A DNA stretch of 26,960 nt from a virus. A program made the translations under genes and the position numbers. This document shows positions 17,906-24,346 of this stretch, piece after piece. The stretch's first letter is position 1. Every line of letters starts with the position of its first letter. Location of the stretch: IMG/VR virus record IMGVR_UViG_3300022888_000031, positions 1-26,960 of that record; one strand, given 5' to 3'. The notes beneath the pieces are model-generated. The model was not told the DNA's origin. It searched no databases and was given only the letters and a program-made list of their open reading frames with translations.

Positions 17906-20677
17906 TTGCGTAAATTTTTATTAAGCCTCTTGATGGTGATGAGTTTCGTATATACTCAGACACCAATAATTAGACTTATGCAATCAAGGGAGTATAACAC
18001 ACCAAAGTATTGGTGGGGAGCACAAGAAAATTTTAAGCTAAGAGGATTTTTAGCAGATGATACTACTGGTTTAGCTAATCCAACTAACGGTACTTATAAA
18101 AGTAAGACTAGAGGTGTTGCGTATAAGAATAATAACTTTGATGCTTGGAGAGATTCAGTAATGACAATTGCTGTTACACTTGATGACAACGATGCCGATG
18201 TAACTGCTTTTCGTTTAGATTTAGTATTTGATAATGATTTAATAGATTGGACTCACGATTCAACCCACGTAGAGAAAGGTGCATATATAAATGGTTGGAC
18301 TGAAGGAGATAGTGCAGCAGCTGCACATTACTCTTACGAAGTTGTTAGGTATGCTGATGTAGGATATGCTGATTCATTAGCCGCAGGTGGAACACAAGAT
18401 ACTTCAAAATCTATTACAGATGCTCGATATGATTGGTTAAGAATCACAATGGTTTCTCATAATGGAAATACGCACACATTTGGTAATGGAGATTCTACTC
18501 AAACAGAATTATTAAAATTACATTTTAGAATAAAAGATGTTGTAGATAATTTTTCTGCTAAATCATTTAGAGTAGCAACTAAATATTTAGCTGGAACTGG
18601 ATATTATACTTATGTAACAAATGGAAATTATCTAACTACATATCAAATTTATATAGATGGTAACACAGGACAAGATGGAGTTGGTATAGGTGGTGCACGT
18701 GGTGATATTACATTACATCCAAAGTTAGTAGATGTAGAGGGTTATTTAAGATATGTTCAAGGTAAAGGTAGAGCCGTTGCAGCAGCATTCACTACAGCAA
18801 CAGACAACACATATCCATATTGGAAAATAAAATTTGAATTAGACCAAAGTAATCCACATTCTTATTCTAATTGGTATAACATAGAATCAATTACAGATGC
18901 TACTACAACAACAGAAACTAATACTACCGATGACGTTATTGGTAATTATCAATCAGGAGCTCCAGGATATTTTTATCTTAAAAAAACAACAATAGCAGAC
19001 CAAGTAGTGCCCGCAGAGGGATTTCTTGGTATATCTTATTATGATTCAACTTATACAGATTCTAATGGATATTATAATATACAGTTACCAAGAAACAATG
19101 GATACCGAATGTCATTTTGGCCTCCTGATGCAAGTGATGATATTGAAAACCACGTTCAACTTGAATTAGATAGAAATCAAATTACAAATGTAACCGATGC
19201 TATAATGTCATTTAACTTCCAATCAGGTAAACATCACAATTATAATAGTGGTGGTGGTAGAATAGACACATTAAATTCTATTGAATACTTTATTGGTGAT
19301 GTTGACGGAGATGATTTATTTCAGTTAAACGACACTTATATATTATGGAGTTATGTATCAGGAATAATGAATAACTATACACACCATAATGGAAACTCTT
19401 ATGAGGATTGGTCTACAATAGATACGTTTCACGTAGCTGGAACACCAACAGCTCGTGGATATTATCAAACTTTAAATGGACAATCAAGACTACAAAAATA
19501 TGAGTTTACAGTATTTGAAGATGGAGATTTTAATCAAGCTCAAGCTTTAACATATAACCCTATAGAAACTTTAAATCCATTGATGGATGATGTTATAACT
19601 GGATTAGACACGATACATTATAATGTTGGAGCTGGAACTTCTACGTGGCACGCAGATAAAGTAACAAATGATGTAAATCCAGATTACACGATTGATAGTT
19701 TATCATATTTCTTTACAGGTGATATAAACACTACAGGTACAAAAGTTGGTAGTGATGCATATCAGACACAAACTAATACCACAACATATTATCGGTGGGG
19801 GGCGGTAGGTAATGCACCAGCTAACTGGAATCAAAAAATTAATATAGGAGATAATACACCAGGAATATTAAGTAAATCTAAGAATGTTGACGTTATTCTT
19901 TCTTTACCCGCTGATTCTACAGTTAGAGTTCAATCAGGTAATCAGATAGAAGTTCCGTTAACTATTACACCGAGAGCGGGAGTTCTTATATCTGGTTTTG
20001 AATTTGAAGTTGAGTTTGATACAACGGTATTACATTTTATAGATATGAAAACAGATATTTTACCAGGCCCGTGGATGACATATGTAAATGTTCACGAACC
20101 CGTAAATAATTGGCAAAGGGTTTCGTTTGGTGGTGTAGATTATTCACCAAGTAATGCACCAGAAAGATATTGGATTGATAAAGAGATTGTAGGATTAAAT
20201 TTAGTATTTGAAGCAGCGTTTCCTGATACTGAGTGGACACAAGCTCCAATAAATTTTATTGGTAAGCACGCAGCTGGAACACCTGCAGGTAGAGACTTAA
20301 CTATGAGTAAGAGTGATGGTGAAGTATGGGTATGGAATAAGTATTGGGCATTTGGTGGTGGAAAACCAGATGAAGAAGCAATAACATATAACTATCCAAA
20401 CCCATTTATAGAGAATACTAAATTTCAATTCTTTTTAGATGAACCAAAAGATGTTCAATTATATATTTTAAATTCTATTGGACAAAGAATAGGAACACTT
20501 TTAAATGAACACGTGTTGACTGGATTACATACATTTGATTTTACAAATGAACCAACGGTTTGGTTGCCTGATGTGAGTGTGTATGAAAATCATCAAAAAT
20601 TAGAACCAGGAGTTTATATCTTTGTAATGCAAACAGATAATAGAATTAAAGCTAATAAATTTACGGTGGTGAAATAA
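17906..20677 (+). CDS. Secreted multidomain protein with T9SS type A sorting domain, 923 aa
   Basis: Predicted to be exported by Sec and then across the outer membrane by the type IX system. Residues 1-17 are a signal peptide (RKFLLSLLMVMSFVYTQ). About 84-210 is a cohesin-like β-sandwich. About 260-420 contains a carboxypeptidase-regulatory-like region (DSNGYYNIQLP). GDVDGDDLFQLND (464-476) is a calcium-loop motif like half a dockerin. About 660-800 is a second cohesin-like domain (VPLTITPRAGVLISGFEFEV). Residues 829-923 are a classic T9SS sorting domain: NYPNPF, then VQLYILNSIGQRIGTLL, GLHTFDF, LEPGVYIFVMQT and a final KFTVVK. The start is TTG, supported by GAGGAG seven bases upstream and by the signal peptide that begins there. 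The following PorV/PorQ-like gene starts in its stop codon (TAATG). The architecture is typical of host surface proteins, so it was probably acquired from a host. Confidence 0.88.
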   Translation: MRKFLLSLLMVMSFVYTQTPIIRLMQSREYNTPKYWWGAQENFKLRGFLADDTTGLANPTNGTYKSKTRGVAYKNNNFDAWRDSVMTIAVTLDDNDADVTAFRLDLVFDNDLIDWTHDSTHVEKGAYINGWTEGDSAAAAHYSYEVVRYADVGYADSLAAGGTQDTSKSITDARYDWLRITMVSHNGNTHTFGNGDSTQTELLKLHFRIKDVVDNFSAKSFRVATKYLAGTGYYTYVTNGNYLTTYQIYIDGNTGQDGVGIGGARGDITLHPKLVDVEGYLRYVQGKGRAVAAAFTTATDNTYPYWKIKFELDQSNPHSYSNWYNIESITDATTTTETNTTDDVIGNYQSGAPGYFYLKKTTIADQVVPAEGFLGISYYDSTYTDSNGYYNIQLPRNNGYRMSFWPPDASDDIENHVQLELDRNQITNVTDAIMSFNFQSGKHHNYNSGGGRIDTLNSIEYFIGDVDGDDLFQLNDTYILWSYVSGIMNNYTHHNGNSYEDWSTIDTFHVAGTPTARGYYQTLNGQSRLQKYEFTVFEDGDFNQAQALTYNPIETLNPLMDDVITGLDTIHYNVGAGTSTWHADKVTNDVNPDYTIDSLSYFFTGDINTTGTKVGSDAYQTQTNTTTYYRWGAVGNAPANWNQKINIGDNTPGILSKSKNVDVILSLPADSTVRVQSGNQIEVPLTITPRAGVLISGFEFEVEFDTTVLHFIDMKTDILPGPWMTYVNVHEPVNNWQRVSFGGVDYSPSNAPERYWIDKEIVGLNLVFEAAFPDTEWTQAPINFIGKHAAGTPAGRDLTMSKSDGEVWVWNKYWAFGGGKPDEEAITYNYPNPFIENTKFQFFLDEPKDVQLYILNSIGQRIGTLLNEHVLTGLHTFDFTNEPTVWLPDVSVYENHQKLEPGVYIFVMQTDNRIKANKFTVVK

Positions 20678-21513
20678 TGAAAAAAATACTATTGACATTA
20701 CTACTTTTTAGTAGTATATTCGCACAAGCAAATAGAATATTAACCTTAGCACCAACTGCTCAAGTAAGTTCTATTGGTAATGTAATGTTACCAATGATGA
20801 ACCCAGCCCGTAATCTTTTTGATAAAGACCATTTCAGTTTTAGTAGAGTAAATTGGATGACTAATATTGTAGATGATATGAGTTATAATTTCTTAAATAT
20901 TGATAGAGGCCCATTTGGAGTTAATATTATGTTCTTTAATTATGGAGAACAAAATCAAACAAATGAAAGTGGAATTATAGAAGGACAATTCACACCATTA
21001 AGTGCAGTATATGGTTTTAGTTATGCACGTAAGGTTAGTAAATATAACTTAGGGTTAGATGTAAAACTAATAACACACGACTTACATACTCAAAAAGCAA
21101 ACGGTTTAGTATTTGGAGTTGGTGGTTATTTTCCTAAAGTGTATAAAGATTTAGATTTAGATGTTATGGTTCGTAACTTTGGATTTGCACCTAAGTTCGG
21201 TAGTTATAAATCAGAACTACCCACAAGTGTAAATGTGGCTGGAACATATCCATATAAAGATTTTATGTTTTATGGTCAATTTAATAAAATGGAAAAACAT
21301 CAAACATTTGGTGTTGGAACAAGTTATAATTATAAAAATATGTTGTGGGGAAAAGTTGGATATTATATGGATGATATGCACGAATTAACTTATCCCACAT
21401 TTGGATTAGATTTTAAATATGACAAGTATATTGTTGGTATGAGTTATATTTATGGAGACAAGACGTTACCGTTGAGTAACACAATTAGATTAACAATAAA
21501 CCTGGAGTTGTAA
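20677..21513 (+). CDS. PorV/PorQ-family outer-membrane protein of the type IX secretion system
   Basis: 278 residues with a signal peptide (KKILLTLLLFSSIFAQ) and then the family's opening, ILTLAPTAQVSSIGNVMLPM, followed by NPARNLF. The middle matches the PorQ pattern closely: GPFGVNIMFFNYGE, EGQFTPLSAVYGFSYARKV, YNLGLDVKLITHDL, and VRNFG. It then runs as repeated amphipathic strands to an apolar C-terminus (TIRLTINLEL), as in a β-barrel. PorV and PorQ work with the PorU sortase to remove the sorting domain and attach cargo to the surface lipid; PorV shuttles cargo from the translocon. It is shorter than usual family members (about 330-390). Its one-base overlap with the T9SS cargo gene implies they are a functional pair. 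Whether it is closer to PorV or PorQ I cannot decide. Confidence 0.78.
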   Translation: MKKILLTLLLFSSIFAQANRILTLAPTAQVSSIGNVMLPMMNPARNLFDKDHFSFSRVNWMTNIVDDMSYNFLNIDRGPFGVNIMFFNYGEQNQTNESGIIEGQFTPLSAVYGFSYARKVSKYNLGLDVKLITHDLHTQKANGLVFGVGGYFPKVYKDLDLDVMVRNFGFAPKFGSYKSELPTSVNVAGTYPYKDFMFYGQFNKMEKHQTFGVGTSYNYKNMLWGKVGYYMDDMHELTYPTFGLDFKYDKYIVGMSYIYGDKTLPLSNTIRLTINLEL

Positions 21514-21514
21514 A

Positions 21515-21907
21515 ATGGCGAAAAATAAAGTAGTGGATGCAGAATCCGCTGTAGAAGAGATGAAGAATAAAAAGTTTGGATTATCAATCCAAAATATCAT
21601 AGCTCTTGTAACGGTTCTATCCACAGGAATAGCAGGTTGGTATTCGTTTACTGGTCGTATTGATGGATTAGAAGAAATAGTAACAGGATTTGCAGATGCA
21701 AGTGATATAGAATTGGTAACTTCTAAACTTGATTCATATGATGAAGACATCAAGTATCTTCGTGATAAACTTGATAACTTAAAAACACCTAAAGTTAAAT
21801 CTTATGATAAAGATGTAGCTAACTTAACCAATGAAATCAAAGGTTTGAAAAGAGAAATTAAGAAGTTAGAAGAACTACTTAAAGACCCTTTAGCAGATTT
21901 TAAATAG
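21515..21907 (+). CDS. Membrane-anchored coiled-coil protein, 130 aa
   Basis: A basic N-terminal tail (about 1-22) is followed by one membrane helix (about 25-46, IQNIIALVTVLSTGIAGWYSF) and then a long acidic/basic coiled coil (about 65-122). The most likely topology is inner-membrane anchor with the coiled coil in the periplasm, which resembles an inner-membrane spanin. It could equally be a scaffold for the secretion cassette around it. The start lies one base after the PorV/PorQ-like stop. No named family recognised. Confidence 0.75.
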   Translation: MAKNKVVDAESAVEEMKNKKFGLSIQNIIALVTVLSTGIAGWYSFTGRIDGLEEIVTGFADASDIELVTSKLDSYDEDIKYLRDKLDNLKTPKVKSYDKDVANLTNEIKGLKREIKKLEELLKDPLADFK

Positions 21908-21916
21908 GAGATAACA

Positions 21917-22579
21917 ATGAAAAACAATTATCGTTTTGTATTGTTTGTTGTTTTAGGATTCGTAATGTCTAATATAATTGGGTGTGCGGCTTCCGTTCAA
22001 ACAGAACAATATGTAGGTGAGTATGAAAAAGAAAAATCAATGGATGAAGTTGTCGTAACTAAAGTAGATGGATTAAAAATACTTGAAGTAAGAGCTAATA
22101 AAGATATGGAAGAACGATATCCTGAACTAGCAGAGAAGAGAGTTGCTTTCGGTCTAACACAAGAACTTCAGAACGTTGTATCTTATATCGGTAGATTTAA
22201 TATGATTGAAGCCGACAGAGATATGCAGTTAGCTATCAGAAATGATTTGAAAGCTAATAAGGCTAAAATCACAACGGCAAAGTATTCTGGTTATGTAACC
22301 ATTTATGATTTTGCTGTCAATCTAAAAGAAGAAATAAAAGCTGGTAAGGTGGAGACTATCAATGAAACAATAGTTGGTATTCAGGTTAAGTTGATTAACA
22401 ATGAGAATACACAGTATGTTGTTGGTAGTGGTCAAGGAAGAGCTTCAACCGTAGGTAGAGGATTTCTTATGAATCCTAATATGGCTTGGAATCAATCTTC
22501 TTTAAGTTCCGCATCAAATAAAGCTATGGAGACAGCCGTAGTCAATGTTATAAAAGCAATTGACCGTAGGGGTTGGTAA
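21917..22579 (+). CDS. CsgG-like outer-membrane lipoprotein, 220 aa
   Basis: The signal peptide ends in a lipobox, IIGC, with the lipidated Cys at residue 23 and Ala after it. The mature part has the layout of the CsgG superfamily: a helix with RVAFGLTQELQNVVSYIGRF then NMIEADRDM (about 75-104), a β-strand segment YSGYVTIYDFAVNL, a second strand pair around VGIQVKLINNENTQYVVGSGQG, and a closing helix AMETAVVNVIKAIDRRGW. CsgG forms the outer-membrane pore that exports curli subunits. The N-terminal CsgG signature motifs are not obvious, so this is a superfamily call rather than true csgG. TAGGAGATAACAATG gives a strong start overlapping the previous stop. Curli-type genes have, as I recall, been reported in some marine phages. 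Confidence 0.65.
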   Translation: MKNNYRFVLFVVLGFVMSNIIGCAASVQTEQYVGEYEKEKSMDEVVVTKVDGLKILEVRANKDMEERYPELAEKRVAFGLTQELQNVVSYIGRFNMIEADRDMQLAIRNDLKANKAKITTAKYSGYVTIYDFAVNLKEEIKAGKVETINETIVGIQVKLINNENTQYVVGSGQGRASTVGRGFLMNPNMAWNQSSLSSASNKAMETAVVNVIKAIDRRGW

Positions 22580-22584
22580 AATGG

Positions 22585-23619
22585 ATGTGGCAGAAACTAA
22601 TATTAATTTTTTTATTGTGGAGTAGTGTTTCTGCCCAATCCTTTTTCTATTCATACGTAGACCCTTGTCAACAAACTGTAGTTCGTAGTAATTATACAAT
22701 TACAGGAGATCAAAAAGGATTTCAAGTAACTTATTATAACCGTACTAAGTTTTTTACCTTAGAAGAGGCATTAGAAATAGTAAGACGTGATCCAATAACT
22801 GGTGTACCAATATATGCCATAGAAGATTGGGCACAAAATGTCTTTAATGATTTTGAAGATTTATTTCCATGTGCAGTTAAAGTAGCAGAAGAGTTATTAT
22901 CTTCAGTACTTGCAGAAAATGTTAGTGAGCAATTTAGTAAGGATGAAGGTGGTGGAGAAGATATTTCATCTACACCACAACAGGTTAATTATGCTATTCG
23001 TTCTACACAAGGTGATGAAAGGTGGATAACATCTTTCAATAGTGTTTATACTGCAACAAGTTTTGATGGTAGAAAAAGACACGATGGTAATTTTAATTTT
23101 ACTAATGATTTCAGAAAAGGTTCTCTCACATATGGTCAAGGATTTAAGTTCAAAGCCAAAAAACAAAATGTAGTATTGAATGGAAGTGCTTTAACATATC
23201 AAACATTTGAGGGATGGGATTGGTTATTATCTACTTCATATGCCAAATCATTACAAAAGAAAAATGCTGAAGCATTTGTTTTTTCAGGCACATATGGAAG
23301 AGTTAGTGGTAATAATTTTGGAAATTTAACGATGGTATATGGACAAAGATTTCCATTTAAGATAATGGGTGGAAATACAATTACATTTTCTAACTATATT
23401 GCCTATACTCTAATGAGATATTATGAAGGTAATAATCCAGGAGATAGATATTTATTACTGAGAAGTCCTGTTATTTTTATGCCAACCATATCAATGGATT
23501 GGAAATTAGGAACGGCTTTCTCATTTAATTTAGGTGTTTCAATGGGATATAACACCGTAGTTAATGATTATGGGGAACGAGGTAAGAGTTTCAGTATATT
23601 ATTTGGAACTTATTTTTAG
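22585..23619 (+). CDS. Outer-membrane β-barrel protein, 344 aa
   Basis: Signal peptide in residues 1-18 (WQKLILIFLLWSSVSAQ). The mature N-terminal part has two cysteines, at 28 (YVDPCQQ) and 96 (LFPCAVK), with YYNRTKFFTLEEA between; they could form a disulfide. From about 130 on, the protein is a run of alternating amphipathic strands with aromatic belts and it ends in a phenylalanine (ILFGTYF), a usual end for outer-membrane barrels. I chose ATG 22585, not an upstream in-frame TTG at 22573: the TTG lies directly on the AGGGG site, while the ATG is 12 bases downstream of it and starts the signal peptide cleanly. It sits between two CsgG-like genes, suggesting a shared outer-membrane complex. 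I recall similar YVDPC-type proteins in marine phages but cannot name a family. Confidence 0.75.
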   Translation: MWQKLILIFLLWSSVSAQSFFYSYVDPCQQTVVRSNYTITGDQKGFQVTYYNRTKFFTLEEALEIVRRDPITGVPIYAIEDWAQNVFNDFEDLFPCAVKVAEELLSSVLAENVSEQFSKDEGGGEDISSTPQQVNYAIRSTQGDERWITSFNSVYTATSFDGRKRHDGNFNFTNDFRKGSLTYGQGFKFKAKKQNVVLNGSALTYQTFEGWDWLLSTSYAKSLQKKNAEAFVFSGTYGRVSGNNFGNLTMVYGQRFPFKIMGGNTITFSNYIAYTLMRYYEGNNPGDRYLLLRSPVIFMPTISMDWKLGTAFSFNLGVSMGYNTVVNDYGERGKSFSILFGTYF

Positions 23620-23629
23620 GAGAAATAAA

Positions 23630-23698
23630 ATGAAAAACGTATGTGATAATCCAAATTGTGAATGTGAAAATTGCACTTGTGAAAATTGTAATTGTTAG
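23630..23698 (+). CDS. 22-aa cysteine-rich microprotein, metallothionein-like
   Basis: A short frame, ATG 23630 to TAG 23698, encoding 22 residues of which seven are cysteines (5, 10, 12, 15, 17, 20, 22) in a CxCxxCxCxxCxC array. The Cys spacing is like metal-binding metallothionein clusters. The start has the same AGGAGAAATAAAATG context as its neighbours, and its stop forms a TAGGAG that supplies the ribosome-binding site of the next gene, so it is fitted into the operon as a real gene. The DNA shows a 15-base repeat (TGTGAAAATTG twice). No signal peptide. It could bind zinc or copper, or serve as a redox or folding aid to the exported proteins. The function is inferred from Cys spacing only. 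Confidence 0.72.
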   Translation: MKNVCDNPNCECENCTCENCNC

Positions 23699-23707
23699 GA
23701 GTATACA

Positions 23708-24346
23708 ATGAATGAACTAAAAAGTAAGGTTACAAAATGGGGAATTAAGTTACTTACTTTTGGAGTGTTGGCAGTGATGATGTGTAGTGTAGCTAATGGT
23801 CAAGTAGAAATAGAAAGATTAAAAAATGCAGCTAAAGAACGTAGAGAAGCTGCAAAAGCAGAAGCTAAAGCTAATAATCTACCAGTGCCTGCAATTGTAG
23901 ATGCTGATTTAATTAGACCAACATTAACCGTATCTAAATTTGTTGGAACAAGTGAGAATGTTGGTATAAAAGATGATAGAATCACTATGGGAATACAACA
24001 ATTACTACAGGAACAATTTCAAGAAAGTGATTATATTCTAACTGATGATAGTGATGCTAATTTTACTGTATCTGCTGAGATAGTTTACATTGGTAGACCT
24101 AACGAAGCATTTAGTATTATTGGTATATTCAATCGCAGAAAAGATAAAACACAAGTAAGAATGAATGTGTTGTTGACAGAGAATGCGACTGGTAAAGTAA
24201 CCACAGGTAGAGGTATGGGTGAGATTGAAACAAAAATATCTGCTATGGGTTTACAAATTGAAGAAGATGGTGTTCCTTTTAGTAATAGTGAATTGGGTGG
24301 TGCTTTAAGAAAAGCAATTGATGACGCGACGGCAAGTTTAAAATGA
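23708..24346 (+). CDS. Periplasmic CsgG-superfamily-like protein, 212 aa
   Basis: Residues 12-32 are a signal peptide (GIKLLTFGVLAVMMCSVANG); the Cys at 26 is not in a good lipobox, so the product is probably soluble in the periplasm. An alanine/lysine helix follows (about 37-56). The rest resembles CsgG-like or related lipoprotein folds: RPTLTVSKFVG, ITMGIQQLLQEQFQESDYIL, ANFTVSAEIVYIG, a strand pair with VRMNVLLTENATGKVTTGRGMGEI, and a closing helix LGGALRKAIDDATASL. It echoes the lipoprotein at 21917 in overall plan. The two may be partners, with the barrel between. Overlaps the next gene by ATGA. Confidence 0.6.
   Translation: MNELKSKVTKWGIKLLTFGVLAVMMCSVANGQVEIERLKNAAKERREAAKAEAKANNLPVPAIVDADLIRPTLTVSKFVGTSENVGIKDDRITMGIQQLLQEQFQESDYILTDDSDANFTVSAEIVYIGRPNEAFSIIGIFNRRKDKTQVRMNVLLTENATGKVTTGRGMGEIETKISAMGLQIEEDGVPFSNSELGGALRKAIDDATASLK

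Follow-up and report, generated by a model that had tools for sequence, protein, structure and literature searches.

The gene at positions 23630-23698 (forward strand) of an uncultured marine phage encodes a 22-residue cysteine-rich protein, one of a large family of very short proteins, carried by phages, that appears to be undescribed. We propose, with a probability of about two in three, that its product resembles a metallothionein in miniature and serves as a soluble sink or shuttle of thiophilic metal, made late in infection from an accessory cargo gene. The window, that is, the whole stretch of DNA analysed, is 26,960 bases long and is a virus record of IMG/VR, and the microgene has a syntenic homologue in one close relative (L003) and homologues throughout the family.

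Translation of the window yields the frame that an earlier note had described: the product, MKNVCDNPNCECENCTCENCNC, has 22 residues, seven of them Cys, zero aromatics and zero His, and its cysteines are spaced C5-x4-C10-x-C12-x2-C15-x-C17-x2-C20-x-C22. Codons 23642-23695 (forward strand) make up an 18-codon module, C-x-N-P-x-C-x-C-x2-C-x-C-x2-C-x-C, whose Cys, Asn and Pro columns are invariant both in the family alignment and in orthologues found through neighbouring genes. Within the module, TRF identifies 2.9 copies of a 15-bp tandem repeat encoding a CENCx unit (23653-23695, forward strand); given this period, copies can differ by whole units, and the unit number does vary in relatives, with extra whole units in L003, L289 and L301. 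The ribosome-binding signals and the overlap that had been claimed are also in place, as an AGGAG at 23618-23622 (forward strand) overlaps the upstream gene's TAG stop at 23617-23619 and a second AGGAG at 23697-23701 (forward strand), belonging to the downstream gene (ATG at 23708), overlaps the microgene's own TAG stop at 23696-23698. On neither strand of the window is there another short Cys-rich frame; simulation of 300 windows under a Markov model gave 8 such frames altogether, or ~0.03 per window. That it is a real coding gene and not a product of chance is settled by its homologues elsewhere.

The module is found in at least 119 IMG/VR viral stretches, compared with 1 for the motif read backwards, and the same seven-Cys N-P module occurs in 65 stretches of the genome collection. 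Most of its translations come from short frames that stand alone and start a few residues ahead of the first Cys. Among the 104 distinct viral proteins of at most 60 residues in the family, the median length is 33 residues and 36 fall below 30; their cores are 35% Cys and hold only 13 aromatic and 11 His residues among 2423, with no His at all in 93 of the 104. A strong Shine-Dalgarno-like motif precedes 64 members (62%), as against 7.9% of random ATGs. The viral evidence comes exclusively from metagenome contigs, and since many of these are partial, the absence of the gene from a contig is weak evidence.

The family is selected as protein, on its cysteines, and this was found in two phage groups. 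Both searches for loci used a neighbouring protein as bait in place of the motif, and so avoided circularity. With the first bait, a 420-residue barrel-like protein of phage L016, a Cys-rich microgene was recovered in 14 of the 17 loci that include the downstream flank (about 11 of 13 after near-identical contigs were merged). When ten N-P orthologues from these loci were placed on the tree of the bait protein, the seven Cys columns showed 3 silent and 0 replacement changes and the other eleven columns 23 replacements; if all 18 columns are assumed to be replaced at equal rates, the seven Cys columns would all escape with a probability of ~(11/18)^23, or near 1e-5. The frame filter (at least 5 Cys and at least 20% Cys) would still show copies that had lost one or two Cys, and none appeared in the loci of this bait. 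With the second bait, a 139-residue protein adjoining the microgene in another phage group, the microgene was present in 23 of 23 loci at bait identities down to 46%; its eleven distinct DNA versions keep nine of nine Cys invariant, and TGT and TGC are exchanged in 6 of the 9 Cys columns. It is because both searches find the cysteines kept and other positions free to change that we conclude selection on Cys, in line with the purifying selection on the Cys codons for which the earlier note had proposed to test: only TGT/TGC changes are seen at Cys, with replacements elsewhere.

The left part of the window encodes structural proteins of contractile-tail type, including a baseplate wedge protein that matches PHROGs, and the right part a series of exported or membrane protein genes, with the microgene between the last two. 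Its upstream neighbour is a 348-residue exported protein that resembles an outer-membrane barrel (22573-23619, forward strand), its downstream neighbour a 212-residue CsgG-like exported protein (23708-24346, forward strand), and the gap between the two is here called slot B. Slot A, which is empty in the window, lies between a 278-residue PorV-like outer-membrane protein (20677-21513, forward strand) and a 130-residue transmembrane coiled-coil protein (21515-21907, forward strand); a lipoprotein-like protein (21917-22579) also falls in the right part of the window. The labels barrel-like, lipoprotein-like, PorV-like and CsgG-like were assigned by eye, these proteins having zero matches in Pfam or PHROGs. 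Next to the PorV-like gene, positions 17906-20677 encode an exported protein of 923 residues, which matches a cohesin domain and, below threshold, a type IX secretion tail, and these two are possibly host-derived surface proteins. Matches to the PorV-like protein occur in 99 of 100 genomes of Neomarinimicrobiota (best E 8e-14) and, with mostly weaker scores, in 38 of 61 genomes of Bacteroidota; the lipoprotein-like protein has no match in 199 Neomarinimicrobiota genomes. We lean towards a Neomarinimicrobiota host, as a lean and not as a finding.

In this phage group the Cys-rich microgene comes, goes and changes place within one cassette, as is seen from slot B being mostly empty and slot A being filled in several relatives. 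Among the four closest relatives, slot B is occupied only in L003, with an extra CENCQ unit; L002, L004 and L005 keep both neighbours and lack the frame, with clean junctions, from which it follows that the microgene is accessory at slot B. In a wider search by the upstream gene, slot B was empty in all further relatives with a visible junction. Slot A holds a different Cys-rich microgene in L264 and L265 (MCECKQCECESCNCSCCEC), and others in L266, L267 and L272 (MCECKECKCGSTCECKCCEC), in L271 (MCKCKNCKCEECNNCNCCDC) and in L263 (MRDCECMCCGDGCICDSCC); in L044 it holds one of the N-P form (MCNNPECKCENCNCENCNCK). Some close relatives carry no Cys-rich microgene anywhere on their partial contigs. 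At L263 (2496-2555) and L292 (4286-4363), Cys-rich microgenes without the N-P signature sit in slots that hold N-P types in related phages. The expectation that related phages would have the same frame at the same place was accordingly borne out in L003 and failed in three of the four closest relatives, other relatives using slot A. The earlier note had taken as refuting either loss of the frame beside retained neighbours or a broken Cys pattern; the former does occur, in L002, L004 and L005, and the Cys pattern is eroded in no orthologue examined.

When ten family members were compared with PHROGs, no match was obtained up to E = 1, nor was any obtained to E = 1 with Pfam and NCBIfam, metallothionein models included, a comparison in which the composition filter of HMMER may hide weak matches. 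Solved-structure chains gave one meaningless match and none of meaning. Among cultured phages, tblastn returned nothing for the window's downstream protein, no relative of the 139-residue gene of the second phage group and, for a 37-residue family member, one weak match to an unannotated record (40% identity, E 0.9). DNA searches around four members reached, among cultured phages, Pelagibacter phage HTVC115P alone, which has a relative of one neighbouring gene and no Cys gene there, and the motif is absent from HTVC008M; the masking of Cys-rich queries limits these cultured-phage searches. No described phage metallothionein was found in the open literature. The statement that no phage family of this form had been described therefore holds for Pfam, PHROGs, NCBIfam and the open literature.

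Fungal copper metallothioneins have roughly 25 residues and 7 Cys. The window family resembles these, other metallothioneins and MymT in being very small, about one-third Cys arranged in CxC pairs, poor in aromatics and His, stand-alone and missed by annotation, and it has the composition by which metallothioneins are recognised: a high share of Cys in CxC and CxxC (7 of 22 residues in the window protein, about a third in the cores) and few aromatics. It differs from them in being phage-borne, in its fixed C-x-N-P-x-C-x-C start and in having no Pfam or NCBIfam match, and its metal binding is putative. MymT of Mycobacterium tuberculosis, which was found as an unannotated frame, is a protein of 4.9 kDa with a predicted capacity of up to six Cu(I) ions (PMC7558416); it is larger than the 22-residue window protein, and the two are likened by description. 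SmtA-type proteins use about nine Cys together with His ligands in a zinc-finger-like fold (PMC7387436, PMC7558416). SmtA and PmtA, of cyanobacteria and Pseudomonas, are likewise small Cys-rich prokaryotic proteins, whereas the window protein contains 7 Cys, lacks His and is matched by no Pfam model, and is set apart from them by sequence and not by fold. More than two million unannotated small phage genes have been reported, and these share with the microgene their shortness and lack of known function; the review mentions neither cysteine nor metal (PMC11323111). Metallothioneins are thus a known kind of protein, and it is the phage-borne, roughly 19-40 residue, slot-hopping version with a signature of its own that appears to be new.

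Several of the module's cellular relatives, which are rare, connect it to metal handling. An HMA-domain protein of L131, L153 and L189 ends in the module (Pfam 3.5e-13 for the HMA domain in L131), and in L189 its gene adjoins a cation-efflux gene (3.4e-43) and a gene for a P-type ATPase that itself bears HMA (4.3e-54 and 3.4e-12); these CopZ-like HMA proteins are possibly chaperones with a built-in store. In L127, L146, L155, L163, L167 and L177 the module is N-terminal to a repressor of the BlaI/CopY family (2e-16 for L127, the one scanned), five of the six genomes being titled Acidimicrobiales or Acidimicrobiaceae and one Dormiibacterota. No recognised copper gene is adjacent to these fusions in the regions viewed, and a DUF5134 gene adjoins the one in L155. 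The fusions may represent an undescribed metal sensor. CopY itself belongs to the Pfam family Penicillinase_R, to proteins of which the module is found fused. In other bacteria CopY has a CxCxxxCxC tail by which it binds Cu(I) (PMC7558416). That tail resembles the module in its CxC pairs, which bind Cu(I) or Zn; CopY, however, has two such pairs only and is a DNA-binding regulator, whereas the window gene is the Cys module alone. A Tenericutes ferredoxin carries two modules behind it (1.2e-12), and a stand-alone copy in L135 lies in an island with Cation_efflux, HMBD (heavy-metal-binding) and HMA proteins. Such an island is not the rule for cellular copies, being present in 1 of 6 Chitinophagaceae genomes, and most stand-alone copies are not beside metal genes. 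In three Chloroflexota MAGs of SAR202/Dehalococcoidia type (L140, L159 and L175), the microgene lies inside an alternative complex III locus (ActD, NrfD).

It is the cellular fusions and neighbours, the Cu(I)-binding tail of CopY and the composition of the family, taken together, that make a metal-thiolate role the best explanation. The likeness to metallothionein clusters suggested by the earlier note is upheld to the extent that the cysteines are conserved, the remaining positions vary, aromatics are few and some cellular relatives are fused to or beside metal-handling proteins; for its suggestion of interference with a host metal-dependent step, we found no evidence.

In phages, family members neighbour Fe-S biogenesis proteins, PAAR spike-tip proteins, membrane proteins and a ferredoxin, and because these neighbours differ from phage to phage, context singles out no metal or pathway. 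PAAR tips hold a metal ion. One phage group (L014, L024, L034, L041, L056, L104, L106 and L122) has the microgene close to a gene for a PAAR spike tip, and a link between the metal of the tip and the Cys-rich microgene is conceivable. Other neighbours raise the possibility that the Cys array holds iron or an Fe-S cluster, or passes it to phage or host enzymes, in place of buffering copper or zinc. In one phage group, that of L147 (699-1768) and L313-L335, the microgene directly follows Fe-S genes, two of HesB type and one of IscU type standing shortly before it in L147 and relatives (Fe-S_biosyn/HesB and NifU_N/IscU matches); L044 (9679-9966; Fer4 E 2.8e-11) and L265 (6267-6554) encode a ferredoxin in the same envelope cassette; and cellular ferredoxins bear the module as a tail. 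We nevertheless consider this unlikely. In the partner-specific fusions the module is joined to an HMA domain, with a P-type ATPase alongside; no ferredoxin or other Fe-S gene was seen in the cassette of the window itself; and an array rich in CxC that has no further ligands is typically found in Cu/Zn thiolate clusters. It is the HMA and P-type ATPase links that lead us to favour Cu(I) or Zn over Fe.

We regard it as quite improbable that the protein is a thiol redox buffer or reductant, a metal-free and sacrificial pool for the oxidative stress of infection. Its thiol content is very high, and in L034 and L122 the members lie downstream of genes judged by eye to be ribonucleotide reductase-like and glutaredoxin-like, but such a pool would have no need of the strict C-x-N-P-x-C-x-C spacing that phage and cellular members share, and no need to be fused to a CopY-type repressor or an HMA domain. 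Still less probable is a leader peptide, inert in itself, whose Cys codons would let translation of the frame sense cysteine supply and control the downstream gene. As in a leader, the frame is short and rich in Cys codons, and it stands close to the next gene, with which it is probably coupled; yet RNA structure and attenuation were rejected for the microgene, its RNA folding no better than shuffled sequences (z 0.27), with no terminator near 23600-23740 and no Rfam match, and the downstream gene varies by phage (slots A and B plus many other neighbours), the non-Cys residues N and P are kept too and the module is also a domain within larger proteins. That the 15-bp tandem repeat merely reads as Cys-rich by accident, through chance or repeat slippage, is refuted by the conservation data, in which Cys columns take no replacements while others vary, and by homologues across many phage groups and the Shine-Dalgarno-like excess (62% against a background of 8%).

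For a miniature metallothionein-like protein, the following course may be envisaged. The microgene would be translated in the infected cell, probably late and together with the structural and envelope genes. We infer a cytoplasmic location, there being no evident signal peptide. The 22-residue chain would be unstructured without metal, and its seven cysteines, as CxC pairs, would wrap a small metal-thiolate cluster, with Cu(I) or Zn(II) a likelier occupant than iron. As a soluble sink or shuttle it would act, to the presumed benefit of the phage, while the envelope of the host is being remodelled and the cell dismantled. As accessory cargo, the gene would pass from one intergenic slot to another and gain or lose 15-bp units encoding CxxCx.

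More broadly, we judge the odds to be about even that unrecognised, mobile micro-metallothioneins of ~19-40 residues are encoded by auxiliary genes of phages in many groups, marine and other, sited wherever late genes leave a gap, and that they hold or redirect the copper, zinc or iron of the host during infection. If so, phages would commonly handle metals when they infect, a trait overlooked to date and encoded by genes whose shortness puts them beyond standard gene callers (of the 104 distinct viral versions, 36 have fewer than 30 residues), and C-x-N-P-x-C-x-C would serve as a marker motif for annotating the family in phage and bacterial genomes.
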